Shown in pieces: positions 4,552-60,518 of a stretch of 64,000 nt of DNA. The DNA comes from Methylomonas koyamae (lineage in GTDB: Bacteria > Pseudomonadota > Gammaproteobacteria > Methylococcales > Methylomonadaceae). The stretch is from positions 2,046,001-2,110,000 of the forward strand of contig NZ_AP019777.1 in assembly GCF_019669905.1 (NCBI RefSeq), read 5' to 3'. Each line of letters begins with the position of its first letter. The first letter of the stretch is position 1. Under the pieces are notes generated by a model, which was not told the DNA's origin, ran no database searches, and saw only the letters and a list, made by a program, of their open reading frames with translations. A program made the position numbers and the translations under genes.

Positions 4552-7500
4552 GTGAGTAGCGATTCAATGAAAGCTGTGCCGGCTAACGAGCAAAACAAAG
4601 CAGATTCGAGCGGAGCCGGAGCGCCGGTTGCCGATTTGATGGGCTTGCTGGAGTACCGCGCCGAGACTCAGCCCGATTTTCCGATTTACCGTTACCTGCG
4701 CGACGGCGAGGACGTGGCGGAAACGCTGTCGTTTGCTGAGGTTGCGTTAAAGGCAAAAACCGTGGCCGCGGCCTTGCAAGGCATTGCCGCCGCGGGCGAG
4801 CGGGTCATGCTGCTGTATTTGCCGGGTATCGAATTCGTCACCTCTTACTTCGGTTGCGTTTACGCCAAGAACATCGCGATTCCGTTGCCGCCGCCGCGCC
4901 AATCGCGGATGCTGCAAACCCTGGAAAAAGTTCTGGAAATCGCCCGTTCGGCCCAGCCGGTAGCGGTTCTGACCACCCAGGCCGTCAAGGAAAAGGCCGA
5001 AGAACATTTCGCCAGCTTGCCCGAGTTCGCGGCGATGCGTTGGCTGGCGACCGACACGCTGGCCGCCGAGCTGGCCGCCGACTGGCGCCAACCGCAGATC
5101 GCCGCCGAAGATATCGCCTTCCTGCAATATACCTCGGGTTCGACCTCGTTGCCGAAGGGCGTGATCCTGACCCACGCCAACCTGATGCATAACATGCGCT
5201 ACTTCGACCAAAGCGGGATTCATAATAAAGAGTCCCGGCTGTTGACCTGGTTGCCGCCGTTTCACGATTTGGGTCTGATATACGGCCTGCTGACGCCGGT
5301 CTATTGCGGCATGGCCTGTTACATCCTGCCCAACGCTGCTTTCGTGCAACGCCCTGCGCGCTGGCTGGAAGCGATCAGCCGCTTCGGCATCACTCATACG
5401 ATGGGGCCGAACTTCGCCTTCGACCTGTGCTTGAACGGTGTCGGCGACGAGCAACTGGCCGGTCTGGACTTAAGCCGGTGGCAACACGCGTTGAACGGCG
5501 CCGAGCCGGTGCGGATGCAGACTATGCGCGCCTTCGCCGAACGTTTCGCCGCGGCGGGTTTCGATCTGCGGGTATTCAGCCCCAGTTGGGGGCTGGCCGA
5601 AGCGGCCTGTATCGTTACCGGTCTACACTATGCCGGCAGCGGCCAGCGGCGGCAGGAGCGGCCGGCGCCGCAAGAAGTCTGGGTACTCGCGGCTGAATTG
5701 CAGCGCAACCGCCTGGTATTCGCCAGCCCGGACGATCCGGCGGCTATGTCGCTGGCCGGTAGCGGCTATCCCATCGCCGATACCGAACTACTGATCGTCG
5801 ATCCCGAGACCTTGGCGCCTTGCCCGGCCGACCGGGTCGGCGAAGTCTGGGTGCGTAACGGTGCGGTGTCGCCGGGCTATTGGCAAAACCCGGAACAGAC
5901 CCAGGCCACTTTTCACGCCTGTGTGGCCGGCGACCCATCCGGCAAGCGCTGGATGCGCACCGGCGACCTGGGCTTTTTATACGACGGCCAACTTTATATT
6001 ACCGGCCGTTTTAAGGACGTCATCATCGTCCGCGGCCAAAACCATTACCCGCAGGACATCGAATGGACGGTGGACAAGGCCCACCCGCTATTGAAGATGG
6101 GCGGCGCCGCGGCGTTCACCGTCACGGCCGACGCCGAGGAACGCCTGGTCGTCGTCGCCGAAACCTCGCGCCGTTTCAAAGCCGAGCAGCATGCAGCGGA
6201 ATTGTTCGCGGCGATCCGCAAGGCGGTGGCCGACGGCCACGAACTGCAAACCGCCGCCATCGTGCTGTTGCGGGAAAGTGCGATTCCGAAAACCACCAGC
6301 GGCAAAATCCAGCGCGCGGCGACCAAACGCGGCTTTCTGCAACAGAGCCTGGCGCCGTTGGCGCAGTGGGTCAACCGCAATCTGGAACGGCAACTGGCGC
6401 TAGCCGAACCCGCCGCTGCCACAGCCCGGCCCGATAGCGAGGCGGTACGCAACTGGTTGCGGCGGCGGGTCGCCGAAATTGCCGGGTTGGACCGCGCAGA
6501 AATCGGTTGCGATGCTGCGTTCGGCGAGTTCGGTTTGGACTCGAATGCATCGGTGCGCCTGACCGACGAGTTGGCAAAAGCCTTCGGTTTCGGCTCGCTG
6601 CCGGCCAATTTGTTGTTCGACTATCCCAGCATCGACCGGGTCGCGGACTATTTATGCCGTGGCGAAGATGCCGCGGCGGCTGCCGGCGCCGATCAGGCGC
6701 CGGAGGCGGACATTGCCGTGGTCGGCATGGCTTGCCGTTTTCCCGGCGCCGATGGCACCGCGGCGTTCTGGGACTTGCTGAGTTCCGGAACCAGCGCGGT
6801 GCGGCCATTACCGGCGGAGCGCAAGGCCTTGCTGGCCGGCTTGGCGGACGACGTCGACGCATTGGGTGCTGCCGGCTGGCTGGACGGCATCGACTTGTTC
6901 GATCCGGCACCGTTCCATATCTCGCCGAAAGAGGCAGCGATTCTCGATCCGCAGCAACGCCTGTTATTGACTGCGGCCTGGTCGGCGTTGGAGCAGGCCG
7001 GCATTAGCCGTGAAGAATTGGCCGGTTCCGCCACCGGCGTGTTCATCGGCATCAGCGGTTCGGAATACGCACAATTGGCCTGGCACAGCGCCAGCGGCCA
7101 GGACGGCCACGCCGGCACCGGTACCGCATCGAGCATCGCCGCGAACCGGCTGTCTTATTTTCTGGATTTGCGCGGTCCCAGTCTGGCAGTGGACACCGCC
7201 TGTTCTTCGTCGCTGGTTGCGGTGCATCTGGCTTGCCGCAGCCTGCTGGCCGGCGAATGCGACACCGCGTTGGTCGGCGGCGTCAATCTGCTGTTGAACC
7301 CGGCCTTAACGCGGGCGCTGGCCAAGGCCGGCATGCTGTCGGCCAGCGCTGCTTGCCACAGTTTCGACAGCGCAGCCGACGGTTACGTGCGCGGCGAAGG
7401 CGTCGGCTTGGTGGTGTTGCGCCGCGCCGCGCTGGCCGCCGAGAGTGGTAATCCGCTGTTGGCTTTGATCGCCGGCAGCGCAATCAACCAGGACGGCCAT

Positions 7501-10500
7501 AGTTTCGGGCTGACCGCCCCCAACGGCGTTGCCCAACGCGCCTTGTTGCGCCAAGCTTACGCCGCCGCCAAACTCGCGCCGGGCGCAGTCGATTATCTGG
7601 AAGCGCACGGCACCGGCACCGCCTTGGGCGATCCGATAGAAGCCGGCGCATTGGCGGAAGTGCTGGGTGCCGGCCGCGAGCGGCCCTGTCTGCTCGGCTC
7701 GGTCAAGGCCAATATCGGCCACCTCGAGGCTGCGGCCGGTATCGCCGGCCTAATCAAGGCCGTGTTGTGCCTGCAACATAATGCGGTGCCGCCGTTGGCC
7801 GGTTTCCGCGGGTTGAATCCGCATATCCGCTTCGATCCGCAGGCGCTGGAGATCAATACCCAACTGCGCCGCTTCGCCGCCGAGCGGCCGTTACGCCATG
7901 TCGGCGTCACTTCGATGGGGTTCGGCGGCACCAACGCCCACGTCGTATTGCGCCGGGCGGATAGCGCCGCCGTCGCGGCTGCCGCGCCGCAACGCTCGTA
8001 TTACGCCTTACTGTTATCGGTCGAGCGTCCCACGGATTTGGCGCCGCTCGCCGCGAGTTATCTCGATGTACTGCAATCGCACCCCAAGCAATGGGCCAGC
8101 CTGTGCTACCGGGCCAATGCCGGCCGCAGCGGCTTAGCGTACCGCACCGCTTTACATGCCGCCGACGCCGGCGAAATGCTGGCCGGATTGGCGCGGCTGG
8201 CGCAAGGCACTGCAGCGGCAACCGCCTCGGTCGCCGGCACGCCGAAACCGCTGGCGTTCCTGTTCACCGGCCAGGGTAGCCAATATCCCGGCATGGCCCG
8301 CGATTTGTACGCCCACGCCCCGCGGTTCCGGGCCACGGTCGACGAATGCGATTTGTTGCTGAGCGGGGCCGGCATGGCGCCGGTAGCGCCGCTGCTGTAC
8401 GGTTCCGACGCGCTGGACGGCGACGGACTGGCCGAAACCGCGACCGCGCAACCGGCGTTGTTCGTGGTCGGCTACGCCCTGGCCCGCTATTTCGAAAGCT
8501 GCGGCTTGGCCCCGGCAGTCGTCGTCGGCCATAGCCTGGGCGAGTACGTCGCCGCCTGCTTTGCCGGCGCGATGTCGTTGGCCGACGCGCTGCGGCTGGT
8601 CGTGTTGCGCGCTCAATTGATGCAACGTTGTTCCGACCAAGGCGGCATGGTGGCGATGCTGGCGGACAAAGCCGCCGCGCTGGAGTTGATCGGCGCCGAT
8701 TCGGCACTGGCGTTGGCGGCCGACAACGGCCCGACCCAAGTCACGGTATCCGGCCCGCACCAATCGTTGGCGGCATTGGCCGAACGCGCCAAGGCGGCCG
8801 GTATCGCCGTGCTGCCGCTGAAAGTGAAACGCGCCTTCCACAGTGCCGACATGGAGCCGATACTCGCCGAATTCCGCACCGTCGCCGCCCAAGTGGCCTG
8901 GCAGCCGCCGCGTCTGCCGGTAATCGGCAACCTGACCGCCGCGGCGGTGGACCGTTTCGACGCCGACTACTGGGTCGAACATTTACGCCGCCCGGTGCGC
9001 TTTCGCGAATGCATCGCCGCCGCCGAGGCGCTCGGCGCCGGGATGTTTCTGGAGATCGGCGCCCAGCCGGCTTTGACGGCGATGCTGCGCCGTTTCGATC
9101 CGGCGCCGGCCGCGGTAGCCAGCCTGGATGGGCAACGCCCGGACTGGCTGGCGGTCAATTCGGCACTGGCCGAACTTTGGCGCGCCGGCCACCGCGTCGA
9201 TTTCCGTAAGGCTTGGGCCGGCGAAACTTTCGACCGCGTCGAACTGCCCGGCTATCCGTTTCAACCCAGCCGTTTTTGGCTCGAACCCACCACCAGGAAA
9301 CCCATGACGACCGCGACCGCCACTAACCCGACCGGCGAACTTGCCCGTTTGCTTGCTCCCTTGCTGAAATGCGCACCCGAAGATATAGCCGCCAGCCGCT
9401 CGTTCCTGGAACTGGGCGCCGATTCTTTGGTGTTAGTGGAATTTCTGCGCCAGGTGCAAGGCCGTTACGGCGTGCAAGTCGCGATGCACAGTTTGTTCGA
9501 GGACTTGCGCGACCTCACCGCGCTGGCCGCCTGGCTGGCGGAGCAGGGCGCCGACTTCGGCGATAGTCCGGCGGCGGCAGACCGCGTCGAGCCGCAGGTC
9601 GCCGGCTGGTTGCAACAGCAACTCGGCCTATTGTTGAAACGTCCGGCCGCCGAACTCGACCCGCGGCGCAGTTTCCTGGAATTGGGCGCCGACTCGCTGG
9701 TGTTGACCGAACTGCTGCGGCTGATCGGCGAACGCTACGCCGTCGATATCGGCATGGCGCGCTTGTTCGCCGAGCTGTCCAGCATCGAAAGCTTGGCCCC
9801 GGCTATCGCCGCCGTCAGCCCGAAACTCGAATCCGCGCCCGCCGCCATCGCCGCGCAGCCGGCTGCGGCCGCTCGCGTGGCTCAGCCGTTACCGGCCGCC
9901 GCACCAAACGCCGTTGCATCCAGCGAATTGCAAGGCCTGTTGGCACGGCAATTGGACGCCTTCAACCAATTGGTGCAAGGCCAGCTCGGCCTGTTGCACG
10001 GCGCTGCCGCGCCGCTGGCGTTGGAACCGGCAGCACCGGCAGCGAGTCCGGCGCCGGCCGCAGTTCAGCCGTTAACGGCAGCAATACCGTTGCCGACCGC
10101 CGCCAAGGCCGCGGCCGGCGGTCTGAATCCGGCGCAACAGCAACACCTGCGCGAGCTGGCTGCGGCCTACCAAGCCAAACATGCCGCCTCGAAACGTTAC
10201 GCCGAAACCTACCGCGAGGTATTCGCCGATTACCGCAGTTCGCTCGGCTTTCGCCAGGCCACCAAAGAAATGATTTTCCCGCTGGTGGTCAATACCGCCG
10301 CCGGTTCCCGGATTTACGATTTGGACGGTAACGAGCTGATCGACCTGACCATGGCCTTCGGTTCCAGTCTGCTCGGCTACAACCCGGATTTGGTCAAGCA
10401 AGCCTTGTCGGCCCAGCTCGAACAGGGTATCCAGGTCGGGCCGAAAAGCCCGTTGGTCGGCGAGGCTGCGCAATTGGTGCGGGACCTGACCGGCTGCGAA

Positions 10501-13500
10501 CGGGTCGCCTTCGCCAATTCCGGCACCGAAGCGGTGATGACGGCGGTGCGCATGGCGCGCGCCGTCACCGGCCGGACCCGCATCGTCCGTTTCGCCGGCT
10601 CCTACCATGGTCATTCGGATACCATGCTGGTCAAAGCCGGAGGCGAGGGCGGCAGCGGTTTGCCGATTGCGCCCGGCGTGCCGCTGTCGGTGGCGCAGGA
10701 TGCCATCGTGCTGGCCTACGGCGACGACGCCTCGCTGGAAACGATACGGCGCCATGCCGGCGAACTGGCCGCAATCGTGGTCGAACCGGTGCAAAGCCGG
10801 CGCCCCGGCCTGCAACCGCGCGAATTTCTGCATAGTCTGCGGGAAATCGCCAGCGCCGCCGGTTGCGCATTGATATTCGACGAAATCATCACCGGTTTCC
10901 GTTTGGCGCCGGGCGGGGCTCAGGAATACTTCGGCGTCCGCGCCGATCTGGTGACCTATGGCAAAGTCGCCGGCGGCGGCATGCCGCTCGGCATCGTCGC
11001 CGGCAACGCCCGTTTCATGAACGCTATCGACGGCGGCCCCTGGCAATTCGGCGACGCCTCTTATCCGGCAGCCACCGCGACCTTTTTCGCCGGCACCTTC
11101 AGCGGCCATCCGCTGACCATGGCGGCCTCGGTCGCGGTATTGCGCCATTTGCGCGATGCCGGTCCGGCCTTGCAGGCCGGCATCACCGCCAAGACTGCGC
11201 GCTTGGTGCGGGAACTGAACGACTATTTCGCCGCCGAGGGCTTTGCCATTCGGGTCAACCATGCCGGATCGTTGTTCCGCTTCGTGTTTTTCGACAATTA
11301 CAGCGTCGAATTCCAACCCATCGAAGCCAATCTGTTTTTCTACCAGATGACGCAGCGCGGCGTGTACATCTGGGAAGGCCACACCTGCTTCCTCAGCAGC
11401 GCCCACAGTGAGGCCGACGTCGACGCCATCGTCCGCGCCGGCCGCGAATCGGCCCAGGCTCTGCGCCAGGGCGGATTCTTCCCGCCGGCCGGCGGATTAC
11501 CGCCGCAACCCGGCCAAGCCAAGGCCGATGCCGACGCGGCGGCGCAGGCATTGAACGCCTTGGCTACTGCGCTGGCGGCGCAGAGCTTGCAAGAGTTGCA
11601 GGTATTGCCGGCCCAGGTCGGCGGTTTGTGCAACGTCGATAAAGCCGCGGCGGCAATCGGAGTGGCGCCGAATCGCCGCCGCCTGTTCGGCCGCTTGTTC
11701 GCGCTGCTGGCCGAGGCCGGCTGGCTGCGCGCCGCCGGCGAAGACTGGGAGCTGCGGCAATCGGCGCCGAGTACGACCGCGAATCTGGAACGCGAGGCGC
11801 GCAGTTCGGCCGACGCTGCAGCGGTCGACTTATTGCTGCATTGCGCTGCGGCCTTGCCGGACGTTTTGCGCGGCCGCAGCGATGCGGCGCAAGTACTGTT
11901 CGGCGGCGAAAACTACGCCTTATTGCAGCGGCTGTACCGCCAAGCTCCCGGCGCCGCAGCGGCCAACCAGGCTCTGGCGCGCGCCGCATCGGCCGCCGTC
12001 GCCAATGTCTCCGGCAACGCCGCAGTATTGGAGGTCGGCGCCGGCACCGGTTCGGCCACCGCGCAACTTTTGCCCGATCTGAGCCGGCAGCAACTGCGCT
12101 ATGTATTTACCGATCTCTCCAGCGCCTTCCTGCACCGGGCCGAACGCGAATTCGCGGCTTATCCGCAAGTCGAATACGCGACGCTGGACATCGAACGCGA
12201 TCCGCTACAGCAAGGCTTCTCCGCGCAATCCTTCGATTTGATCGTCGCCTCCAACGTACTGCACGCCACTGCCGACCTGAGCCGAACCTTACGCCATCTG
12301 CACAGCCTGCTGGCGCCGCACGGCCGCTTGCTATTGCTTGAATGCGTCGGCCGCCAACCCTGGCTGGATCTGATCTTCGGCCTGACCGACGGCTGGTGGG
12401 CTTTCGCCGACGCCGAACTGCGCGCCGACTATCCGCTGCTATCCGCTGCGGCCTGGACCGAGCTGCTACAGCGCTGCGGCTTTACCGAGGCCGCCGCCGA
12501 AGTCTACGCCGGTTACCAAGCCGTCGTCACCGCGGCAACTGCGCCGGCCGCAGCCGCATTGCCGCTGAATAGCGCGCAGCAGGACATCCTGGTGCACCTG
12601 GAGTTAAGCGAGGAAGTACATGCGGCTTACAACGAAGTGGTGTTGTTCGAATTGGCCGGAACCCCGGACCGCGCCAAACTGCAGCAGGCCTTTCGCGGCG
12701 TGTTGGCGCGGCACGATTCGTTGCGCGCCGCGTTGAGCGAGGACCGCAAGCAGATTCTGATCGCTGCGGAAGCGGACGCCACGCTGGCCGAAGCCGATTT
12801 CGCCGATTTGCCGGCGGCACTGGCCGAAGCCAAGGCACGGGAGTGGGTGTTGGCGCGCAGCGCCGAACCGTTCGATCTGACCCGGCCGCCGCTGGTGAAA
12901 GCCTTTCTGGCGCGCCTGGCCGACGACCGCTATTGGTTGCTGTTCCTGGCCCACCACATGATTATCGACGGCATTTCCTACGGCTTGCTGATCCAGGAAG
13001 TCGTGGCGTATTACCGCCATCTGCGCGAAGGTTCCGCGTTGGCCTTGCCCAAACCGGTCACGCTGGCCGAAGCCAACCGCCGGCTTGCCGCGCAGCGGCC
13101 GCAGGACCGCGAATTCTGGTTGCAACAGTTCGGCCAAGGGGTGCCGGCGCTGGATTTGCCGACCGACTATCCGCGGCCGTTGGAACAACGTTTCGCCGCG
13201 CAGCGCTGCTGTCTGGCCCTGGATAGCAGTGTCGCCGCAGCGTTGAAAGACCTGAGCCAACGCAGCAATGCGACGCCGTTCATGGTGATGCTGGCGGTAT
13301 ACCGCTTGCTGCTGAATCGATTGAGCGGCCAGCAGCGTTCGGTGGTCGGCGTGCCGGTGTCGATGCACGGCGACCGGCCCGGCGAAAGTTTTATCGGTTT
13401 CGGCGTCAACGTCTTGCCTATCGTCGGCAGCAGCGACAGCCGGGTTACTTTCGCCGACTATCTGCAGCAGGCCAAACAGGAGTTTTTGCAAGCTTTCGAA

Positions 13501-15687: not shown

Positions 15688-15714
15688 GCGCACGGCTTAA
15701 TTGGAGACAACGAG

Positions 15715-18700
15715 ATGGCAAACACGCAAACACTGATCGCCGAACTGAGCAACGAACAACGCCAGCGTCTGATGGCCAGGTTGCAACAACGCTCGCAGAA
15801 CGACAGGACGGCGGCGCAAACCGAGTTCTACGTGCCGAAACTGCAACCGATGGGCGAGGCCCGCTTCGAACCGTTTCCGCTGACCGACATCCAGCAGGCT
15901 TACTGGGTGGGGCGGCAGGCGGCGTTCGACCTGGGCAATATCGCCGCCCACGGTTATATGGAAGTGGATTGCCGCGGTCTGGATTTGGCGCGGCTGGAAA
16001 CGGCTTTCAACCGCTTGATCCTACGCCACGACATGCTGCGCGCCGTGGTCAATCCCGACGGCCGCCAACAGATTTTAAAAACGGTCCCCGACTACCGCTT
16101 CGCGCGGCTGGACGCCAGTGCAGCGGGGGAGGAGAGCGACGCTAACCTAGAACAAGTACGCCGGGAAATGTCGCACCAGGTACTGGACACCGCAGTGTGG
16201 CCGCTGTTCGACATCCGCGCCAGCTTATTGGCGGACGGCGTGGTGCGGCTGCATCTGAGCATAGACGTGCTGATTTTCGACGCGTTGAGCTTCGACATCC
16301 TCAGCGAGGAATGGCGCCGCCTTTATCAGGGCGAGGAGCTGCCGCCGCTGGAACTGTCCTACGCCGATTACGTGCACGGGCTGAGCTTGATGAAGGACAC
16401 CGCCGCCTACCGCGAATCCTGCGTGTATTGGCGCGAAAAAATCAAAGACTTGCCGCCCGGTCCGGATTTTGCGTTGGCCGTGGCGCCGGAAAGCATCGCC
16501 CGCCCCGAGTTTAGAAGGCTGTCCTCTACCCTGGACGCCGAGCGCTGGGGCCAAATCAAAAGCCGGGCCCAACGCCTGGGTGTGACGCCGTCGGCGGTGT
16601 TGCTGGCGGCCTACGGCGCCGTGGTCGCCCGCTGGAGCAGCCGCAAACGTTTTACCCTGAACCTGACGCTGTTCAACCGCTTGCCGTTTCACCCGCAAGT
16701 CAACGCGCTGGTCGGCGACTTTACCTCGGTGGTATTGCTGGAGCTGGATTATTCCAAGCCGGCCAGCTTCGCCGAGCGGGTCAAGTCGGTGCAGGCCCAG
16801 TTATGGCGCGACATGGACCACCGTTACGTCAGCGGCGTGCAAGTGTTACGGGAATTGACCGAACAGCGCCGCGATGCCAATGCCTCGTTGTTTCCGGTGG
16901 TGTTCACCAGCGCGATCAAACCGAATCCGGCCGACGACAGCCCGGCGGCGATGGCCTGGCTGGGCGACGTGCATTACACCATCACCCAAACGCCGCAGGT
17001 GTGGCTGGACCACCAAGTCACCGAAGACGCCGGCAAACTGGAATACGATTGGGACTCGGTGAGCGGACTGTTCCCGGACGGCTTTCTGGAAGCGATGTTC
17101 GACGCCTACCGGCAACTGGTGGCCGGTCTGGCCCACGACGACGTGCTGTGGCAACGGCCGGAACTGGATCTGTTGCCGCGCGAGCAACGGCAACTGCTGG
17201 CCGAGGCCAACGCTACCGCGGCGCCGGTGCCGGCCGGTTTGTTGCACGAACCCTTCGTCCGCCAGGCCCACGCAACTCCGGAGCGGATCGCGGTCATCGA
17301 TGCCGAAGCCGAACTCAGCTACGGCGAGTTATACCGCTTGGCCAATCTGCTGGCCCAGCGCTTGTGGCAGAGCGGCGCCGGCAGCGGCGAACTGGTCGGC
17401 ATTCTGTTGCCGAAAGGCCGCTGGCAGGTCGTGGCCGCGCTGGGCATCCTCGAAGCCGGCGGCGCTTACATGCCGATAGAGCCAAGCTACGGCCAGGACC
17501 GCATCGCCCAAATCCTAGCGCTGTCCGGCGTCAAGCGGGTGGTAGCGGCCGATGCCGCCGCCGCATTGCGCTTGCCGGCCGGAACCGAAGTGCTGCCGGT
17601 CGCCGAATTGGCCGGGTCCGCGCTTCCGGTCAAAGCCTTGCCCACGCTGCGGCGGCCGACCGATCTTGCCTACGTGATTTATACCTCCGGCTCCACCGGC
17701 ACGCCGAAAGGGGTCATGATCGACCATCGCGGCGCCTTGAACACTTGCGTCGATGTCAACCAACGCTTCGCGGTCGGCCCGGACGACCGGGTGCTGGGTT
17801 TGTCGGCACTGAATTTCGACTTGTCGGTTTACGACATTTTCGGCGTGCTCGGCGCCGGCGGCGCCCTGGTGTTGCCGGATGCCGACAAACAGCGCGACCC
17901 CGGCCACTGGGACGAGATGGTGCAACGCCACGGCGTCACGCTGTGGAACACCGTGCCGGCGCTGATGGACATTTACACCACCTACCTGGACGAAGTGGCG
18001 CGGCAGCCTAACCATAGCCTGCGCCTGGTCATGATGAGCGGCGACTGGATTCCGTTGCCGCTGCCGCAGGCGATTCGGCGCAGTTGCCCCAACGCGCAGC
18101 AGTTCAGCTTGGGCGGCGCCACCGAAGCCTCGATTTGGTCCATCGTCTATCCGATCGGCGAGATCAGCCCGCAATGGCACAGCATCCCCTACGGCAAGGC
18201 CATGCTCAATCAAAGCTTTCAGGTATTGGACGAGCAGATGCAAGCCTGCCCGGTCTGGGTGCCGGGCGAGCTTTACATCGGCGGTATCGGCGTGGCAATG
18301 GGCTACTGGCGCGATGCCGAGCGGACCGCGGCCCAATTCGTCACCCATCCGCGCAGCGGCGAAAAACTGTACCGGACCGGCGATCTGGGCCGGCTGCTGC
18401 CTTGCGGCAACATCGAATTTCTCGGCCGCAAGGATTTTCAAGTCAAGATCAACGGTTTCCGGGTCGAGTTGGGCGAAGTCGAAATCAATATGGCGCGCTT
18501 TCCCGGCGTCAAAGCCGCGGTCTGCGCCGTCAGCGGCGACAGCGGCCGCGCCCGGCAGTTGATCGCTTATTACGTGCGCGATGCGGACCAGCCGGCCGCC
18601 AAAGCCGAGGACAACGCAAAAATCCGCTTTCGCCTGTCGCAGCCCGGCCTGCGCCGTTTCGGCGCCGATAGCGAGGCGACCGCGCTGGCCAGCGATGCCG

Positions 18701-19809: not shown

Positions 19810-19865
19810 CGCCGGCTTAAGCCGCCGCCAACCTTATCGAAACATAGACAACGGAAGCAAAGCAC

Positions 19866-26501: not shown

Positions 26502-26516
26502 CGAGTTAACAGAACC

Positions 26517-34040: not shown

Positions 34041-34095
34041 CGGCACGTTTGGCCGCAGGCATTGAACTTAATTTAAGCATTGGAGAATGGTCGTT

Positions 34096-34287
34096 ATGGC
34101 TGAAGAATTGGAAACGCGTTTCGTCGTGGTCTGCAACCACGAACAGCAACACGCCTTATGGCCGGCTTTCAAGCCGGTACCCGCCGGTTGGCAACAGGTC
34201 AAGTCTGCCGACAGCCGGGAAAACTGTCTGGATTACGTCAACCGGAGCTGGACCGACATCCGGCCGCTGAGCTTGCAAGCCTTATGA
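34096..34287 (+). CDS. MbtH-like NRPS accessory protein
   Basis: A 63-residue protein with the family core: NHEQQHALWPAFKPVPAGW, then ENCLDYVNRSWTDIRPLSL. The invariant Trp residues, the Pro-x-Gly-Trp and the W-T-D-I-R-P-L-S-L end are all present. MbtH proteins bind adenylation domains and support their folding and activity, so it most likely serves the four A domains of this operon. ATG 34096 is chosen because GGAGA (34082-34086) lies about 9 bases upstream; ATG 34087 would touch that site. The stop overlaps the start of the next gene (ATGA). Confidence 0.95.
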   Translation: MAEELETRFVVVCNHEQQHALWPAFKPVPAGWQQVKSADSRENCLDYVNRSWTDIRPLSLQAL

Positions 34288-35573
34288 AGCCGATGAACGC
34301 TGACGAAGATTTCAACGCGCGGCCGCCGTCGCCGGTGGTGCGCACCGTCACCTTGGGAATGAACCTGGACCCGGACCAGCCGGAGCGCGGCGCGGAATCG
34401 GCCCGGCGTTTTTTCGGCCGGGCCGGCAACCGCCTGGCGGAAAGCGGCTTGCGCGCCCGTTGTTTCCGGCTGGCCGGACAACCGCTCGACCGTTTGCTGC
34501 ACGGCCGGCGGATTCGGGCCAATGCCGCGGCCGAATTCGCGGTGCGGATGGAGAACGCGCTCGGCGATATCTGGTTCTGCATGCCCGGCCCGTTTTTCGT
34601 CGATGCCGGCGACGATCCCGAGTTGCTGGCGCTGGTGCCGGCCGTGATCGGCGCCACCCGCCACGTGTTCATGAACACGCTGGTCAGTTCGGCCGCCGGC
34701 ATGCACCGCGGCGCGCTGCGCCGGGCCGCCGCCGTGGTGCGCGAACTGGCGCTGTTGGACGAACAGCACCAGGCCAATTTCCGCTTTGCGGTAATGTCCA
34801 ACGTCCAATCGAATACGCCGTTTTTCCCGGCCTCCTGGCACCAGGGCGAAGCCGGATTCAGTATCGCTTTGGAATTGTCGGAATTGGCCAACGCCGCGTT
34901 TTCGCAGCCGTTGCCGTTCGACGAGAAACTGGCCCTATTTCGCAATCAGGTGCGGCGCTCGGCGCAGGAGGCAGCGGATTGCGCCGCCGTGCTGGCCGCC
35001 GAGACCGGCGTCGGTTTTCGCGGCATCGATTTCTCGCTGGCGCCTTACCCCGGCGAGGACACCAGCGCGGTCAGCGCAATCGAGGCGTTGGCCGGCAGTC
35101 CGGTCGGCAGTTTCCAATTCCTGTTTTCGCTGTATGCGGTGAATAATTTGCTGAAGCAGGGTTTGGCCGATTTTCCGCAAGTCGGCTACAACGGCACGAT
35201 GCTGTCGGTGTTGGAAGACAGCCATCTGGCGCGGGCGGTCGGCAACGGTAGCGTCGATGTCAAGGATTTGCTGCTGTACTCGACGGTGTGCGGCTGCGGT
35301 CTGGATATGGTGCCGTTGCCGTTGGATGTCGGCGTCGGCCAAATCGCGGCGTTGATCGAAGCGATTTGCACCGAAGCCATCAAATGGAACAAACCGTTGA
35401 TTACCCGCTTGTTGCCGAGCAGCGTCGGCGCCAACGGCGAGACCAATTTCAACCACCCGTTCATCGTCAATACCCGGCCCATCGCCTTGAACCGCAACGC
35501 GTTCGCGCCGGCCAACGATAGCGAGGCCTTTTTCGATCCGCAACGCTGGGCGCCGACGGCGCTGCCGGCTTAA
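34284..35573 (+). CDS. DUF711 family protein inside the biosynthetic operon
   Basis: A 429-residue soluble protein with the DUF711 (UPF0210) pattern: N-terminal VRTVTLGMNLDPD, a central conserved FRGIDFSLAPYPGEDTSAVS followed by IEALAGSPVGSFQF, and a late CGCGLDMVPLPLD. The family is related in fold to glycyl-radical enzymes but lacks a known activity. The ATG overlaps the mbtH stop by ATGA, so translation is coupled. That makes a role in the pathway likely, for example tailoring, editing or handling a precursor, but this is inference. Upstream in-frame starts inside mbtH are rejected. A DUF711 gene is an unusual member of an NRPS cluster. Confidence 0.82.
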   Translation: MKPMNADEDFNARPPSPVVRTVTLGMNLDPDQPERGAESARRFFGRAGNRLAESGLRARCFRLAGQPLDRLLHGRRIRANAAAEFAVRMENALGDIWFCMPGPFFVDAGDDPELLALVPAVIGATRHVFMNTLVSSAAGMHRGALRRAAAVVRELALLDEQHQANFRFAVMSNVQSNTPFFPASWHQGEAGFSIALELSELANAAFSQPLPFDEKLALFRNQVRRSAQEAADCAAVLAAETGVGFRGIDFSLAPYPGEDTSAVSAIEALAGSPVGSFQFLFSLYAVNNLLKQGLADFPQVGYNGTMLSVLEDSHLARAVGNGSVDVKDLLLYSTVCGCGLDMVPLPLDVGVGQIAALIEAICTEAIKWNKPLITRLLPSSVGANGETNFNHPFIVNTRPIALNRNAFAPANDSEAFFDPQRWAPTALPA

Positions 35574-35598
35574 TTCCACTATTGGGCAAGACATACCG

Positions 35599-36408
35599 AT
35601 GATTACCGACAACTGGTTTACCGATTTCAATCTGGGCGGCAGGGCGCCTTATCTGCTGATTTGCTTCCCGTATTCCGGCGCCGGCGCCAACGTGTTCCGC
35701 AGTTGGGCCGGTGCGCTGGACAACGCCGACGTGCTGGCCGCGCTGCTGCCGGGCCGGGAACGCCGCATCGCCGAGCCGGCAATCGGCGATTTGGAGGAAC
35801 TGGTCGCCGCGTTGCTGCCGGCGCTGCTTGCACGCCTGGACCGGCCTTATCTGCTGTTCGGCCACAGCATGGGGGCGTTGATCGCTTACCGGGTGGCGCT
35901 GGAACTGGGCCGGCGCGGGGTGCGGCCGCCGAAACGCCTGATCGTGTCCGGCTACCGCTCGCCGGAATTGAGCAGCCGCAACCGCTTGTTGCATACCTTG
36001 AGCGACAGCGAATTCGTCGTCGAACTGCAACGCTACGGCGGCACACCCAACGAAGTGTTGCAGCACGAGGAAACCATGCAGTTGTTGTTGCCGATGCTGC
36101 GCGCCGATTTTCGCATCCACGAAACCTACCGCCACGCGCCGCAACCGGCGGTCGAGTTTCCGATTGCGGCCTTCACCGGCCGGGCCGACCATCTGGTGCC
36201 GGGCGAGGACATGGCGGCCTGGCGCGACAAAACCGAGTCTGATTTCCAACATCGCCTGTTCGACGGCGGCCACTTTTTTATCAGCGAGCAGCGCCAGGCC
36301 GTGCTCGCTGCGCTGCAAGACATCGTCAACGAGCATATCAAGGACGATATTTTGTTGCCGTTGGCGGGTATCACCCATGCCGCCGCCGGTTTCGAACCGG
36401 CGGTTTAA
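35599..36408 (+). CDS. Type II (editing) thioesterase
   Basis: A 269-residue alpha/beta hydrolase of the external NRPS/PKS thioesterase family. It opens with LLICFPYSGAGANVFRSWAG, has the nucleophile elbow GHSMGA (Ser90), a later TGRADHLVPGED with the likely acid, and GGHFF with the catalytic His. Such enzymes remove wrongly primed or stalled acyl groups from carrier proteins. Because the last megasynthase ends in a reductase, this is best seen as an editing enzyme rather than the chain-release enzyme. It starts 25 bases after the DUF711 gene. Confidence 0.92.
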   Translation: MITDNWFTDFNLGGRAPYLLICFPYSGAGANVFRSWAGALDNADVLAALLPGRERRIAEPAIGDLEELVAALLPALLARLDRPYLLFGHSMGALIAYRVALELGRRGVRPPKRLIVSGYRSPELSSRNRLLHTLSDSEFVVELQRYGGTPNEVLQHEETMQLLLPMLRADFRIHETYRHAPQPAVEFPIAAFTGRADHLVPGEDMAAWRDKTESDFQHRLFDGGHFFISEQRQAVLAALQDIVNEHIKDDILLPLAGITHAAAGFEPAV

Positions 36409-36426
36409 TTGACGAGACTATTATTT

Positions 36427-37137
36427 ATGACGCAACCGATCATCAAATTGGAACATATCAGTAAGTCCTACGGCCACGGCGACGGTGCCGTGACGGTGTT
36501 GCAGGACTTGAGCCTGTCGATTCAGCAGGGCGAGTTCACCTGCATTTGGGGCGCTTCCGGCAGCGGCAAATCGACGCTGCTGAACCTGATGGGCTTGCTG
36601 GACCGGCCCGAGCAGGGCCGCATCATCATCAAAAACGAGGCGGTGCTGGGCTTGAACGACAATCGCCTGGCCGATTTCCGCAGCCGCCACCTGGGCTTTA
36701 TCTTCCAAAGCTTTAATCTGGTGCCGGTGTTGTCGGCCCAGGAAAATACCATGCTGCCGTTGCAAATTCGCGGCGAAGCCGACAATACCGCCCGGCGCAA
36801 GGCGCGCGATTTATTGGCGGAACTGGGGCTGGAGCGGCATTTGCACAAGCGCCCGGACGAAATGAGCGGCGGCCAGCGGCAACGGGTGGCGATTGCCCGC
36901 GCCCTGATCGGCGACCCCGACATCGTGCTGGCCGACGAACCGACCGCGAATCTGGATTCGGCCAATAGCGACGCGATCATTTTGTTGATGCAAAAGCTCA
37001 ATCAAAAACGCAAAGTCACGTTTCTGTTCGCCACCCACGACACCCATTTGTTGTCCTACGCGGCGCGCTCGATCCAGGTCCGCGACGGCCGCATCGTCGA
37101 CGACCGCCACAACACCTATTTGAGAGAGGCCTCCTGA
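36427..37137 (+). CDS. ABC transporter ATPase, LolD/MacB type
   Basis: A 236-residue nucleotide-binding subunit. Walker A GASGSGKST, Q-loop in FIFQSFNLVP, signature MSGGQRQRVAIARAL, Walker B IVLADEPTANLDS, and H-loop in FATHD are all present. The Q-loop region and short length place it with LolD, MacB and FtsE-type ATPases, which drive mechanotransmission exporters rather than ordinary importers. ATG 36427 is chosen over TTG 36409. It overlaps by one base (TGATG) with the permease gene, so the two are coupled. Probably energises export of the lipopeptide. Confidence 0.92.
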   Translation: MTQPIIKLEHISKSYGHGDGAVTVLQDLSLSIQQGEFTCIWGASGSGKSTLLNLMGLLDRPEQGRIIIKNEAVLGLNDNRLADFRSRHLGFIFQSFNLVPVLSAQENTMLPLQIRGEADNTARRKARDLLAELGLERHLHKRPDEMSGGQRQRVAIARALIGDPDIVLADEPTANLDSANSDAIILLMQKLNQKRKVTFLFATHDTHLLSYAARSIQVRDGRIVDDRHNTYLREAS

Positions 37138-38378
37138 TGTCCATGTCACTCGCAATGCGCTGCAAACTGGCGGCGCGCAACGTTCTGAAAAACCGGCGCA
37201 GGAGCCTGGTCACCGTGCTGTCGGTGGCGATCGGCTTTCTGGCCCTGAGTTTGTTCGAAGGTTATTTCACCTACGTCTACCGGATTTTGAAAGACCAAGC
37301 CATCGTCGGCGAGCGCCTGGGCCATTTGACCGTGGTTCGCCGAGGTTTCTTCGACCAGGGCACGCTGGACCCGGAAAAATTCCAACTCGATGCCGCGGCG
37401 CTGGAACTGGTGACCCGTACCGTGCGCGAGGTGCCGGGCGTGAAATTGGTCAGCCCGCGTCTGGCCGTCAGCGGCTTGGTCAGTAACGGCACCACCTCGC
37501 ACATCTTCATCGGCGAAGCCATTTCGGCGGAAGACCAGATGGCGCTGCGCGGCGCCGAATACGCCTACTTGCCCGGCAAGCTGGCGCCGGGCCAGGACGA
37601 TGCGGTCGTGATCGGCCAGAAGATGGCGAAAATCATGGGCTTGCAGCAGGGCCGCGACGGCGTGTTGATGGCGTCCACGCTGTCCGGCATGGTCAACGCG
37701 GTCGATTTCCGGGTCGGCGAAGTGGCCAATACCGGTTCGATGGGCACCGACGACAAGTTCGCGTTGCTGCCGTTGGCTTTGGCGCGCAAGCTATACGGCA
37801 GCGACGGCGCCGACCGGGTCGTTGTGTTGCTGGATTCGGTCGAGTCGATTCCGGCCGTGAAGCCGGTATTGCTGGAGAAACTGAAGGCGGCCGGCTTCGA
37901 CGCCGAGATCAAGGAATGGAGCGAGTTGTCGGTGTATTACACCCAAGTCAAAGGTTTGTTCGACATGATGTATTTGTTCATCATGGTCGTGGTGGTGATG
38001 GTGGCGATGACCAGCGTGGTCAATACCATGACGATGGCCATCGCCGAGCGTACCCGCGAAATCGGCACTTTGCGCGCCATCGGCATGCGCTCGATGACGA
38101 TCAAGAGCCTGTTCGTCATCGAAGGCGTCATCATCGTCTTCGTCGGCTCGCTGGCCGGCATGGCGCTGTCCTATGCCGTCGGCGCCGGCATCAATCTGGC
38201 CGAGATTACCTACTCGCCGCCGGATTCGTCGGAACAAGCCGCGCTGGTGATCGAATTGTTGTTTAATAACATGTTCGGTTCTTTATTCACTCTGTCGGTG
38301 CTGGCCGCGGTCGCTTCTTATTTCCCGGCCCGCCACGCCACGCAAAAAACCATTGTCGGAGCCCTAGGCCATGTTTGA
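37137..38378 (+). CDS. ABC transporter permease, FtsX/MacB/LolCE type
   Basis: A 413-residue membrane protein. One N-terminal transmembrane segment (RSLVTVLSVAIGFLALSLFEG) is followed by a periplasmic domain of about 230 residues. Three more membrane segments follow, containing the FtsX-family stretch NTMTMAIAERTREIGTLRAIG and a final one before ARHATQKTIVGALGHV. This topology is that of the MacB/LolC/LolE permeases, which move lipoproteins or toxins from the outer face of the inner membrane. No separate MacA-type adaptor is encoded next to it; a LolA-like protein follows instead. The last bases overlap the next gene by eight. Confidence 0.9.
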   Translation: MSMSLAMRCKLAARNVLKNRRRSLVTVLSVAIGFLALSLFEGYFTYVYRILKDQAIVGERLGHLTVVRRGFFDQGTLDPEKFQLDAAALELVTRTVREVPGVKLVSPRLAVSGLVSNGTTSHIFIGEAISAEDQMALRGAEYAYLPGKLAPGQDDAVVIGQKMAKIMGLQQGRDGVLMASTLSGMVNAVDFRVGEVANTGSMGTDDKFALLPLALARKLYGSDGADRVVVLLDSVESIPAVKPVLLEKLKAAGFDAEIKEWSELSVYYTQVKGLFDMMYLFIMVVVVMVAMTSVVNTMTMAIAERTREIGTLRAIGMRSMTIKSLFVIEGVIIVFVGSLAGMALSYAVGAGINLAEITYSPPDSSEQAALVIELLFNNMFGSLFTLSVLAAVASYFPARHATQKTIVGALGHV

Positions 38379-39120
38379 ATACGTCCGCACCCTTTTTCTT
38401 GCTACATCCATGCTGGTTGCCACCGCCGCCGTTGCCGACCCGACGCCGCTGGAACTGTTGCAAGCCAGCGACCGCGCCCGCGGCGGCGAGATCGGCGGTA
38501 TTACGATGACCAGTACCGTGATTGCCTACCAAGACAACGTCGAGGATAAAAGCTACACGCTGAAGATCGAGGCCGACCAGGACAATTCCCTGGTTACTTT
38601 CCTGAAGCCGGCCACGTCGGCCGGCAAGATGATGCTGATGCAGAACCGCAATATGTGGTTCCTGTCGCCCGACGTCAGCAAACCGGTGCCGATCTCGCCG
38701 CGGCAACGCCTGCTCGGCGAAGCCAGCAACGGCGACGTCGCCACTACCAATTACAGCCGCGATTACGACGCGACGCCGGCCGGCGAAGCGGACGTGGCCG
38801 GGCAGCCGTGTTACGTGCTGGAATTGAAAGCCAAGGACGCCAACGTGGCCTACGACAAGATCAAGTATTACGTCGCCAAGGACAGCCAACTGGCGTTGAA
38901 AGCCGAATACATGACGGTTTCCGACAAGCATTTCAAAACGGCATCGATGGAGTACGCCAACCGGATCGACTTCGCCGGCAAAAGCATGCCTTTCGTCAGC
39001 AAGATCGAAATTCAGGACGAAGTGCAAACCGGCCAGAAAACCGTATTGCTCTACGACAAGGTCGAAGCCGCCGCAGTACCGCCGAGTCGCTTCGATTTGC
39101 GGGCCTTGCTCAGCCGCTAA
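38371..39120 (+). CDS. LolA-like periplasmic outer-membrane lipoprotein-sorting protein
   Basis: 249 residues with a clear signal peptide (hydrophobic stretch then VATAAVADP). The mature part begins ELLQASDRARGGE and resembles the broad LolA-like family (beta-sheet half-barrel able to bind acyl chains), including the FLKPATSAGKMMLMQNRNMW segment. These proteins are often encoded beside MacB/LolCE-type transporters. Here it probably carries an acylated substrate from the permease across the periplasm. The overlap with the permease gene supports co-function. The actual ligand is inference. Confidence 0.85.
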   Translation: MFEYVRTLFLATSMLVATAAVADPTPLELLQASDRARGGEIGGITMTSTVIAYQDNVEDKSYTLKIEADQDNSLVTFLKPATSAGKMMLMQNRNMWFLSPDVSKPVPISPRQRLLGEASNGDVATTNYSRDYDATPAGEADVAGQPCYVLELKAKDANVAYDKIKYYVAKDSQLALKAEYMTVSDKHFKTASMEYANRIDFAGKSMPFVSKIEIQDEVQTGQKTVLLYDKVEAAAVPPSRFDLRALLSR

Positions 39121-39126
39121 CGGCAA

Positions 39127-40419
39127 ATGGTTTCGGTGAACGCTCTACGCGGCTTGCGGCCGGCGTTGCTGGCCGCATCGCTGCCGGGCCTCGCCGCCGC
39201 CGCGGATAACGCCTTCGAGTTCGAACACAGCTTCATGTTGCAAAGTTTCGGCGCGATTTACGACATTGCCGAGAACAGCAACTTGAACCCGGACAACCAA
39301 CTGGCGCAACTGGACAACTTTCAGCAGGGTACCCGGCTGCGCTCCAAGTTCACCGCCCGCTACGGCGGCTTCAGCGCCAAGCTCAGCCCGCGCTTCGGTT
39401 ACTTTTTAAGCAACCAAGCCGACGGCGGCAACGTCGTCGCCGGCGAGCATTATTTCCAGGATTGGCTGGTGCAATATGCGACCGACGACCTTAGCCTGTC
39501 CTACAGCCGCGAGCTGCTGTATTGGGGGCCGTCGCTGTTCGCCTCGCCGTCCAACCCGTTTTTCCCGAACAGCAACCAGACCAACCCCTTCATCGAACCC
39601 GGCGCCCAGGATTTCGTGCAATTGCAGTATTTTCACGATTATTCCAACACGCTGGCATTGATCGGCAGTCTGGCCCGGGGCCGTTCGACCATGGTGACGC
39701 CGGATTTCCAGCGGTCGGTGGCGGTGAAGTACGACCATCGCGGCGACGATTATTCGTTGAGCGCAATCGCCGGCTACCGCGAAACCGACGGCTTGCCGCA
39801 GGGCGGCATGTTCGGCCAGTGGACGCTGAACGATTCCACGCTGCTGTATTTCGACGTGGGCATGAAGGGCAAAAGCTACGGCCTGTATCCGCATGCCTCG
39901 GATTCGCCGTTGGGCTACGAATTGGCGCCGAACGGCGACGGCCGCGGCTGGTTCGTCGATTTTCTGGTCGGCGGTTCCTATACCTTCGGTAATGGCGACG
40001 TTTTGAATCTGGAATACCGCCACACCAACGAAGGCTACGGCGCCGCCGATTCCGCCGCCTACCGGCGCATGGCGCAGAACGCCGCCGGCATGCTGCAGGG
40101 TGCCGATCCCAATTTGCAAGGTTTGGCCGCCGGCACCTTGGCCCAGGCCTCGTCGGTACAAATCCGCTCGTTGAACCAGAACTACCTATACGCCAATTAC
40201 CGGGTGCACGAAATCGTCGAAGACCTCAGCCTTAATGTGCTGTATTCGCAAAACCTGCAGGACGGCGGCGCGCAATTGGTGCCGATAGTCGAGTACAACC
40301 TGTTTGGCCAGGTCAATTTGGCCGCCAATCTGGTGTTCAATCTGGGCGGCAGCGATACCGAATTCGGCGGGTATCTGAATAACATCTACTTTCTCGGCGT
40401 CAAATACTACTTCGATTGA
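39127..40419 (+). CDS. Outer-membrane beta-barrel protein of the export system
   Basis: 430 residues with an N-terminal signal (LRGLRPALLAASLPGLAAAADN) and a mature part of alternating aromatic/polar strands (for example RSKFTARYGGFSAKLSPRFGYFL) ending in YFLGVKYYFD, close to the C-terminal aromatic signature of barrels. No plug, POTRA or TolC coiled coil is seen. It starts 6 bases after the LolA-like gene. In this context it may be an outer-membrane partner that accepts or releases the lipopeptide. I cannot name a family. Such barrels next to LolA-like/ABC genes recur in other bacteria. Confidence 0.8.
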   Translation: MVSVNALRGLRPALLAASLPGLAAAADNAFEFEHSFMLQSFGAIYDIAENSNLNPDNQLAQLDNFQQGTRLRSKFTARYGGFSAKLSPRFGYFLSNQADGGNVVAGEHYFQDWLVQYATDDLSLSYSRELLYWGPSLFASPSNPFFPNSNQTNPFIEPGAQDFVQLQYFHDYSNTLALIGSLARGRSTMVTPDFQRSVAVKYDHRGDDYSLSAIAGYRETDGLPQGGMFGQWTLNDSTLLYFDVGMKGKSYGLYPHASDSPLGYELAPNGDGRGWFVDFLVGGSYTFGNGDVLNLEYRHTNEGYGAADSAAYRRMAQNAAGMLQGADPNLQGLAAGTLAQASSVQIRSLNQNYLYANYRVHEIVEDLSLNVLYSQNLQDGGAQLVPIVEYNLFGQVNLAANLVFNLGGSDTEFGGYLNNIYFLGVKYYFD

Positions 40420-40531
40420 TTGCCCGCCGATGCCTACAAATACCGCTACCTGCCGCCAACCGGGAAATGTCGCGGCCGTCGGCCCAATTGGGCGCTTATC
40501 CGGCTTTAGTCCGGCGATAGGGAGCGCTTGA

Positions 40532-41356
40532 ATGGCCGCTGCGGTTTCCGCAATAACCGAGCGCCTTCCGCCGCCGGCACACGGCGAGGCGCACGTCTGG
40601 CTGGCCTGGACCGAGCGCTTTGCCGCCGCCGAAACCCTGGATTATTGCCGCACGCTGTTGGCACAGGATGAGCTGGAAAAGTGGCGCCGGTTTCATTTCG
40701 AACGCGACCGTCAACTTTACTTGGTTGCCCATGCCATGGTCCGCCAGGTGCTGGCCGCTTATCTGGCTATCGCCCCGGAACGTTTGCAGTTCGCGGCCAA
40801 TCGCTACGGCCGCCCGGAACTGGTCCGCGAACCGGGCATGCCCGACCTGCGCTTCAATCTGTCGCATGCCCGTGGCTTGGCGGCGCTGGTCGTGACCCGT
40901 TCGGCGGATTGCGGTATCGATGTCGAGGTCCGGCGCGAGCTGGGCGATCTGGCGGCCATGGCCGGCCAAGTGCTGACCGCAGCAGAACGCGATTATCTTT
41001 GGCGCTTGCCGGACACGGAGCGGAATTGGGCGTTTCTGAAGCTTTGGACGCTGAAGGAAGCCTACATCAAAGCAGTGGGCAAGGGGCTGTCGCTGGCATT
41101 GCATGAAATTGGATTTGCCCTCGGCGCGGACATCTCAATCCGCTTCCAAACCGGCAGCGGCGACGCTGCCGGCGAGTGGCAGTTCGCGCAACGCTTTCCG
41201 GGGCCGGACCACGTGTTGGCGCTGGCGTTGCGTAGCGGCGACGGCCCGGAACTGCATAAGTCTTATTACGAATGGCTACCGCAGCGGCCGGTTGGATCGC
41301 GCGTTGCCGCGTGGCAAAAGGAAAACACCGCGATAATTCGATATCCCGATAGTTAG
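40532..41356 (+). CDS. 4'-phosphopantetheinyl transferase, Sfp type
   Basis: A 274-residue enzyme that converts apo- to holo-carrier proteins with coenzyme A. Hallmarks: FNLSHARGLAALV, GIDVEVRR (Mg-binding acids, near 128-132), and LWTLKEAYIKAVGKG (near 172-186). The length is that of the two-lobed Sfp group, which serves secondary-metabolite synthases. It should activate all eight carrier domains of this operon. A GGGAG lies about 8 bases before the ATG. It is 112 bases after the barrel gene and is the last gene before the base composition drops, so it probably ends the operon. Confidence 0.95.
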   Translation: MAAAVSAITERLPPPAHGEAHVWLAWTERFAAAETLDYCRTLLAQDELEKWRRFHFERDRQLYLVAHAMVRQVLAAYLAIAPERLQFAANRYGRPELVREPGMPDLRFNLSHARGLAALVVTRSADCGIDVEVRRELGDLAAMAGQVLTAAERDYLWRLPDTERNWAFLKLWTLKEAYIKAVGKGLSLALHEIGFALGADISIRFQTGSGDAAGEWQFAQRFPGPDHVLALALRSGDGPELHKSYYEWLPQRPVGSRVAAWQKENTAIIRYPDS

Positions 41357-41642: not shown

Positions 41643-42221
41643 TTATTCCTTAATCGCCGCCATCAATGCACCGCTTTGCTTGCGCATGTTGTCGATTGCT
41701 GGGTGCATGATTTTTAATGCTTCTTCTGCTCGTTTTCTGTCGATTTTTGGTTTTGACCCCGTAATGTTCACCGCTTCATATTCATCGTTGAGTGAATGGC
41801 CCGCAGAATCGAATTCACGTACTGATTTCATGAAGGAATCAAATTGACTAGCTTCGTTTTTCCCCCAATATTTCCTAACCCAAGACTGGAAAACAAATTC
41901 TTTTTTGCGAAGCGTCTTGATGGATTCGTTATAGTTGTTCAACAAATTTGTCATTGCGGTTTTGGTTGTCCAATCATGCTCAATAAATTCCGTGACCAAC
42001 TCGGCTGCAAACAAATACTGACTGACTTCAGTTGCTAATTCTTCGTATTGTTTTGTCCGTAGATCAACCCGATTCAGCGTAAATTTTACTTTTTCTGTAA
42101 TTTGCTCGGGGAAAACTCCAAAAAATCCGATGAAAAATGCAATCAGCCAAGTCACTGTTTGGGTCTTTATCGATGATTTTATGTTGCTAAGCCAGCTATC
42201 TTGATTGTCAGTGACCGTCAT
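41643..42221 (-). CDS. Unknown membrane-anchored protein (192 aa)
   Basis: One hydrophobic segment near the N-terminus (TVTWLIAFFIGFFGVFP) is followed by a mainly helical, charged part, probably coiled, with repeated Lys/Glu and a C-terminal PAIDNMRKQSGALMAAIKE. No known motif is recognised. It lies 6 bases after the gene at 42228-43241 on the same strand, so the two are probably one unit. Codon use is much AT-richer than the lipopeptide operon, suggesting separate acquisition. Function unknown. About 285 bases of AT-rich DNA without a gene separate it from the operon end. Confidence 0.65.
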   Translation of the reverse strand: MTVTDNQDSWLSNIKSSIKTQTVTWLIAFFIGFFGVFPEQITEKVKFTLNRVDLRTKQYEELATEVSQYLFAAELVTEFIEHDWTTKTAMTNLLNNYNESIKTLRKKEFVFQSWVRKYWGKNEASQFDSFMKSVREFDSAGHSLNDEYEAVNITGSKPKIDRKRAEEALKIMHPAIDNMRKQSGALMAAIKE

Positions 42222-42227
42222 AACTAG

Positions 42228-44150: not shown

Positions 44151-44192
44151 GTCGTACTCCAAATCCAAATCAAGGGTGAATAAGTGGAGGGT

Positions 44193-49443: not shown

Positions 49444-49445
49444 CG

Positions 49446-60510: not shown

Positions 60511-60518
60511 GAAAATAC

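Follow-up and report, generated by a model that had tools for sequence, protein, structure and literature searches.

A predicted polyketide synthase-peptide synthetase line in Methylomonas koyamae, probably for a linear thiazole-containing beta-amino lipopeptide alcohol

Overall organization of the locus

Eleven plus-strand genes at positions 4552-41356 of a 64,000-nucleotide stretch of Methylomonas koyamae DNA (contig NZ_AP019777.1, positions 2,046,001 to 2,110,000; hereafter the window) probably encode an assembly line that starts with an acyl-AMP ligase domain (FAAL) and continues as a polyketide synthase (PKS) and nonribosomal peptide synthetase (NRPS). Its predicted product is a linear (3-amino-2-methyl-fatty acyl)-Ala-thiazole-acryloyl-homoserine-(leucinol-like alcohol), likely exported by Lol-like genes of the same run. 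Gaps between the genes, taken from the open reading frames (ORFs) of the window, are at most 117 bases. Four of the ORFs, P1-P4, are megasynthases, all on the plus strand, with 15-56 bases between neighbours (Table 1). The same genes occur in the same order in three other Methylomonas genomes, so the cluster is more than a chance grouping. No sigma-70-like promoter was found in 3600-4700.

Domain order was assigned with Pfam and NCBIfam, and Cy was separated from C by the DxxxxDxxS motif. The motifs looked for are present; except in the P3 tail, almost all of them agree letter for letter in each copy covering them. Specifically, all three active-site residues were found in KS1 and the Cys only in KS2; GHSLGEY is present in both AT domains, and the carrier serines, the aminotransferase (AMT) lysine and the S-adenosylmethionine motif were all found. 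HHxxxDG is present in the three C domains and DVLIFDALS in Cy, the KR and DH of P3 carry S-Y-N and HxxxGxxxxP, respectively, and the terminal reductase domain (R) of P4 carries TGxTGFVG and YNxxK. Every domain named in a preliminary description of the locus was thus found in the order given there, and the gammaproteobacterial host it had supposed is correct, the genus being Methylomonas (genome 5.10 Mb). That description had staked its reading on the alignment of FAAL, AMT and Ox with their families, and each aligns with a solved relative (below).

Read from domain homology throughout, assembly would begin with the loading of a fatty acid on ACP1 by FAAL. Extension by KS1/AT1 with one malonyl unit would give a beta-ketone carried by the tandem ACPs; the C-methyltransferase would methylate its alpha carbon, and AMT would convert the ketone to an amine. 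C1/A1 would then add Ala, and Cy/A2/Ox would incorporate Cys as the thiazole ring. P3 would add one malonyl unit, which after reduction and dehydration would become an enoyl group, and its dead E-like tail would dock to P4. P4 would add homoserine and then a Leu-like residue, and R would release the chain reductively, with an alcohol the likelier outcome. The phosphopantetheinyl transferase (PPTase) would arm the carriers, the type II thioesterase would clear stalled ones, and export would likely proceed via the adjacent Lol-like genes.

The lipid end of the assembly line

The closest solved relative of the FAAL domain is 7r7g (2.1e-151), an acyl-AMP ligase of a polyketide synthase, with the FadD23, FadD32 and FadD28 ligases lower, while that of AMT is mycosubtilin MycA (6kfm; 9.4e-136, 456 bits), followed by glutamate semialdehyde aminomutases at no more than 243 bits. 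This family evidence backs the beta-amino fatty acyl group that the preliminary description had predicted from the two domains. AT1 is assigned to the malonyl type on its RAFH motif, as we take RAFH and HAFH to be malonyl motifs.

The same description had likened this beta-amino fatty acid to the mycosubtilin/iturin family. As in that family, FAAL and a MycA-type aminotransferase stand in one PKS-NRPS protein; the Asn first residue and the cyclising terminal thioesterase of the family were not found, A1 being of the Ala type and P4 ending in R with no thioesterase domain. The locus would work in a similar way, but family membership was rejected.

The methyltransferase (MT) of P1 has CurJ as its top solved relative (8.3e-68), then other PKS-associated methyltransferases. 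Its NVLHAT motif and a downstream Glu align with CurJ, as expected of a PKS C-methyltransferase; the His and Glu are presumably catalytic. Since MT is of this type, the fatty acid is predicted, from family and motifs, to be alpha-methylated, of the 2-methyl-3-amino type. The position of MT after AMT would also suit methylation of the amine that AMT forms, in which case the beta-amino fatty acid would be N-methylated. We regard this as unlikely and rejected it as a first choice because the relatives of MT are PKS-associated, the first N-methyltransferase appearing at 1.2e-05.

Other genomes bear on the same question. AMT is found at 49-53% identity inside large ORFs of eight other family genomes, and in the three of these eight assigned with Pfam the slot between AMT and C holds a luciferase-type monooxygenase (G012, of the same genus) or nothing (G120, G029). 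A monooxygenase in that place is linked to a 3-amino-2-hydroxy acyl group in the account of puwainaphycin given in passages of PMC4219810. Together, the G012 slot and this parallel fit tailoring of the alpha carbon and argue against N-methylation.

Adenylation codes and the thiazole module

The ten-residue codes were read by motif, with a numbering that we take to be the standard one, as DLYNMSLIWK for A2, DLKNLGTDLK for A3 and DAWLLGAVIK for A4 (A1 in Table 1), and no relative covering A1-A4 departs from them at any of the ten positions. We presume that the whole A1 code specifies Ala and that DAWFLGNVVK, which shares 7/10 positions with the A4 code, specifies Leu. The A3 code has nine of its ten positions in common with DLKNLGTDVK. 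In PMC12283262, D-L-Y/W-N at the first four positions is tied to Ala domains, DLYNMSLIWK stands among Cys codes with Ox-modified moieties, DLKNLGTDVK is given for homoserine or homoserine-lactone domains, and DAWFLGNVVK is first-named among the commonest Leu/Ile/Val codes. The predicted residues are thus Ala, Cys (as thiazole), homoserine and a Leu-like residue.

The nearest solved relative of the Ox domain is the oxidase BmdC (7ly5, 1.3e-26). DxxxxDxxS, a Cys code and a flavin oxidase domain are all present in P2, as in Cy-A-Ox modules, and this family evidence upholds the earlier prediction of a thiazole. Among plasmid records, 1831 match P2, two at 60-80% identity and the others below 60%; the ten matches listed are NRPS places of 39-48% identity.

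The P3 tail

KR lies before DH in P3 (22608-24872), the usual order being DH before KR. The protein ends in a tail of about 386 residues (1826-2211) for which neither Pfam nor NCBIfam gave a match at E<=10, nor PDB a sequence match at E<=1. Comparison with hhalign likewise gave no profile match to the C domains of this cluster, and hmmsearch over the fetched loci returned orthologues only. Among the 311 genomes of the order, it matches in five: the four with the cluster, and G004 with a weak, stop-bearing match.

The preliminary description had entered the tail as "(E*)". Structure modelling gave matches to one superfamily: the 50 listed matches (of 498 at E<=10) are all condensation/epimerase-superfamily proteins or chains with such a domain, and they include tyrocidine E domains and the bacitracin E-COM-C structure, at TM scores of about 0.35 for a weak model (predicted local distance difference test score, pLDDT, 48.8; predicted TM score 0.41). 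The epimerisation-domain motif HHxxxDG is absent in all three copies covering the site; in its place P3 reads LVLQARPVLGLDAGGLGRI. An active E domain at the end of P3 was rejected.

The last 28 residues of the tail are identical at 27/28 positions in each of three relatives, and the remainder at 257/357, 255/357 and 150/211. C2, the first C domain of P4, is nearest to McyB, PvdL (E2-C3 entries), bacitracin synthase 3 and TycB1, and C1 to TycC. We take the C domains of McyB, TycB1 and surfactin synthetase to be ones that follow E domains, and tips of the COM type to serve in docking. As the tail lacks the catalytic motif, has a conserved C-terminal tip and is succeeded in P4 by a C domain of the type found after E domains, it is likely the vestige of an E domain, retained for docking. 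The structure matches to the condensation/epimerase superfamily would also fit an active or condensation-type domain. We consider that reading improbable, given the missing motif and the fact that the tail is the least conserved domain of catalytic size (73-74%, against 82-98% for the others).

Reductive release

The R domain scores 222 bits against the R of MxaA and 46 bits against that of AusA. Passages of PMC2835699 describe the myxalamid, myxochelin and gramicidin reductases as yielding alcohols and the nostocyclopeptide, Lys2 and saframycin reductases as yielding aldehydes. With an alcohol-forming nearest relative in that account and YxxxK present, R resembles alcohol-forming (four-electron) reductases. 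Since it is far closer to MxaA than to AusA, reduction to an alcohol is likelier than to an aldehyde. The preliminary description had left the two open; family evidence supports its reductive release, and we rejected the aldehyde as first-choice product.

An amine-forming domain at one end of the line and a reductase at the other could also mean that R stops at the aldehyde, as nostocyclopeptide-type reductases do (PMC2835699, in part), and that the free beta-amine attacks it to give a macrocyclic imine, replacing the thioesterase cyclisation of iturins. The bit scores for R speak against this, and the thiazole and alkene would be expected to stiffen the chain. We hold such a ring to be unlikely, and favour the linear alcohol.

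Conservation and distribution

The cluster is present in 4/37 Methylomonas genomes, its own included, being whole in three and broken by contig ends in G011. A full 781-residue AMT-MT query matches 4/237 family genomes, all of this genus; all 237 match part of it because ordinary aminotransferases do. Among named genomes, the AMT-MT search gave nine loci, two with this cluster and seven in which the match is confined to MT, at 34-42%. The cluster genes were also located on contigs NZ_PPPU01000016.1 (Methylomonas koyamae SM2) and NZ_JANIBM010000058.1 (Methylomonas sp. SURF-1), both within the genus. Similarity to G035 and G020 spans about base 4396 to 41287, and P1 is complete in both. In G011 the block lies on two contigs, covering P1 residues 1860-3711 and not 1-1859.

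Presence in so few genomes of the genus might suggest a decaying remnant. This is very improbable and was rejected: no internal stops were found in the orthologous frames of the cluster genes in Methylomonas relatives, and the whole-gene ratio of nonsynonymous to synonymous substitution (dN/dS) is 0.05-0.19 in 10 of the 11 genes (PPTase, 0.21-0.29). For the P3 pieces of G011, dN/dS is 0.074 in the first (886 codons) and 0.305 in the tail piece (239 codons).

Guanine-plus-cytosine (GC) content is 65.0% in the megasynthases, 59.9% on the left side and 53.8% on the right side, and four genomes that lack the cluster have the neighbouring amino acid permease at 67-73% identity. Horizontal arrival of the cluster is possible.

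Downstream genes and the Lol-like cassette

Behind P4 lies a DUF711 gene; among the matches listed in the open-access literature, one paper names DUF711, as a fold family only. DUF711 was rejected as a marker of the cluster: outside the four Methylomonas genomes its matches are at most 34% identical, bar one of 41 residues in G006 (51% identical, with an internal stop). The surroundings of that match (L063) showed no further DUF711. A 56-base piece of L063 (13838-13892) resembles the beginning of the window's DUF711 gene (34222-34276) at 84%, and an NRPS ending in a reductase-like domain lies nearby.

The four genes before the PPTase form a Lol-like cassette. The ATPase scores 233.8 bits against the LolD equivalog cut-off of 307.75 and the permease 97.5 against the LolCE cut-off of 362.45 (NCBIfam), so neither qualifies as LolCDE proper. 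The 430-residue protein that follows LolA_like ends in YYFD, and no Pfam or NCBIfam family was found for it; it matches 10/237 family genomes, the four with the cluster at 94-100% and six at 21-34%.

A class-wide LolA search was positive in 87/369 genomes, and 23 loci were compared: the top LolA site in each of the 20 highest-ranking other genomes, plus three family loci found through the 430-residue protein. G163 (a family locus on a 3.2-kb contig), G114 and G119 were left out. All four cassette genes stand in the same order in 6/23 loci, five of them with a KS-AT match (one weak, 40 bits); the other 17 include none with KS-AT and one with an NRPS match. These counts come from stretches and contigs of unequal length, and the genes of two of the six cassettes doubled as extra queries; in three of the six (G039, G110, G186) the same four genes were found with the window's own genes. 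Recurrence of the cassette beside KS-AT genes in other Gammaproteobacteria is thus suggestive only.

The full LolD-LolCE-LolA_like-probable barrel cassettes are at loci L102, L103, L104, L135, L137 and L138 (window, 36409-40419). At L103 (10-15697) the cassette has KS-AT-ACP-KR, chalcone/KASIII-like and DH-ACPS genes on one side and two glycosyltransferases on the other, possibly a glycolipid locus.

Several points weigh against the proposed assembly line. The product and the enzyme steps are predictions from the genes. C-methylation is assigned by family and motifs, and MT sits in an unusual place after AMT. Ala for A1 is partly our presumption, the Leu call for A4 is weak at seven shared positions, and published homoserine codes are often accompanied by Ser or dehydroalanine (PMC12283262, in part). 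Sequence comparison links the tail of P3 to neither C nor E domains, its structure model is weak, and the electron count of R is presumed. DUF711 has no place in the biosynthetic scheme, and the transport substrate and the barrel (model pLDDT 27.7) are both conjectural.

Table 1. Features of the locus, with positions in the window
Feature	Position	Strand	Basis
P1 megasynthase, 3711 aa, FAAL-ACP-KS-AT-ACP-ACP-AMT-cMT-C-A-PCP	4552..15687	+	Pfam/NCBIfam
FAAL domain	4624..6366	+	NCBIfam/Pfam, PDB sequence match
KS1	6709..7986	+	Pfam, motifs
AT1, RAFH motif	8257..9093	+	Pfam, motifs
Tandem ACP2-ACP3	9349..9831	+	Pfam, motifs
AMT, pyridoxal-phosphate (PLP) aminotransferase, MycA kind	10189..11487	+	PDB sequence match
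C-methyltransferase, PKS kind	11629..12516	+	PDB sequence match
C1	12559..13863	+	Pfam; PDB sequence match
A1, code DLYNNALTYK, Ala predicted	13918..15351	+	Motif-read code
P2, Cy-A-Ox-PCP, 1364 aa, predicted thiazole module	15715..19809	+	Pfam/NCBIfam, motifs
Ox domain inside A2	18721..19236	+	Pfam; PDB sequence match
P3, KS-AT-KR-DH-ACP + E-like tail, 2211 aa	19866..26501	+	Pfam/NCBIfam, motifs
E-like tail of P3, without HHxxxDG	25341..26498	+	Motifs, structure model, alignment
P4, C-A-PCP-C-A-PCP-R, 2507 aa	26517..34040	+	Pfam/NCBIfam, motifs
R, thioester reductase domain nearest MxaA	32931..33977	+	NCBIfam, score comparison
DUF711 protein	34158..35573	+	Pfam; 92.6-93.2% identical in relatives
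Stand-alone (type II) thioesterase	35599..36408	+	Pfam
LolD-like ABC ATPase	36409..37137	+	Pfam/NCBIfam, under LolD equivalog cut-off
LolC/E-like FtsX-family permease	37137..38378	+	Pfam/NCBIfam, under LolCE cut-off
LolA_like periplasmic carrier	38371..39120	+	PF17131
430-aa protein, signal-peptide-like start, probable outer-membrane barrel	39127..40419	+	Sequence
PPTase, HetI-like	40532..41356	+	Pfam/NCBIfam

Rest of the window

A minus-strand gene run of about 42% GC occupies 41643-46406, three of its genes having weak Lcl_C matches slightly under the cut-off. An HlyD-family adaptor and a C39-peptidase ABC exporter, of the kind that exports leader-bearing peptides, lie at 48196-51566 with short unassigned ORFs immediately upstream. 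Two adjoining transposase ORFs (DUF772/DDE) stand on opposite strands at 54558-56503, and 54284-55412 has a copy in G035 (L016:9199-10332, 88% identical). At 59514-63857 are cas1 and a cas2-cas3 fusion of type I-F.

Comparison with known systems

The locus offers a conserved line in culturable methanotrophs with a sharp mass prediction. The calculated [M+H]+ of the predicted alcohol is 582.3684, 610.3997, 638.4310 or 666.4623 with a C8, C10, C12 or C14 starter; the aldehyde would be 2.0157 lower (608.3840 for decanoyl), and the macrocyclic imine with a decanoyl starter would be at 590.3735. The locus further suggests that the tailoring slot between AMT and C is interchangeable (C-methyltransferase here, monooxygenase in G012, nothing in G120 or G029), that a dead E domain may mediate transfer from PKS to NRPS, and that lipid metabolites may be exported by a Lol-like route open to testing. 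We put forward only tentatively the wider proposal that a 2-methyl-3-amino lipid, aminoethyl-thiazole-acryloyl, homoserine and an amino alcohol make up a new lipopeptide scaffold, that its export is of the lipoprotein-sorting type, by a LolD-LolCE-LolA-barrel cassette reused in Gammaproteobacteria to move PKS/NRPS-made lipids across the envelope, and that a dead E domain acts as a PKS-NRPS docking plug. The preliminary description knew of no compound with all of these features; among the matches listed in the open-access literature, no Methylomonas lipopeptide of this kind appears, and PMC11964084 gives counts by cluster class.

Like MycA of mycosubtilin/iturin synthesis in Bacillus, P1 has FAAL, KS and an aminotransferase before its first C-A module, and MycA is the top solved match of AMT. 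The locus differs in the C-methyltransferase after AMT, the Ala-type first residue, the thiazole and enoyl units and the terminal reductase. Its AT lies within the same protein, whereas that of mycosubtilin is the separate FenF. The first residue of mycosubtilin is Asn, according to passages of PMC4219810. By the same passages, the cyanobacterial puwainaphycin synthetase (PuwC/D/B/E) also starts with FAAL and has an AMT and a tailoring domain ahead of its first C domain. It differs in having a monooxygenase in place of the C-methyltransferase, FAAL on a separate protein and thioesterase release.

The Cy motif, Cys code and BmdC-nearest oxidase of P2 recall the Cy-A-Ox modules of bacillamide and epothilone, except that the module here sits inside a lipopeptide line. 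The C-A-PCP-R ending of P4 is that of the terminal module of myxalamid MxaA, the best match of R, while the last residue is Leu-like here and Ala-type in MxaA. Finally, the LolD-like ATPase, LolC/E-like permease and LolA_like carrier resemble LolCDE-LolA lipoprotein sorting, but score below the equivalog cut-offs; here they accompany a megasynthase, and a barrel-like protein comes after them.

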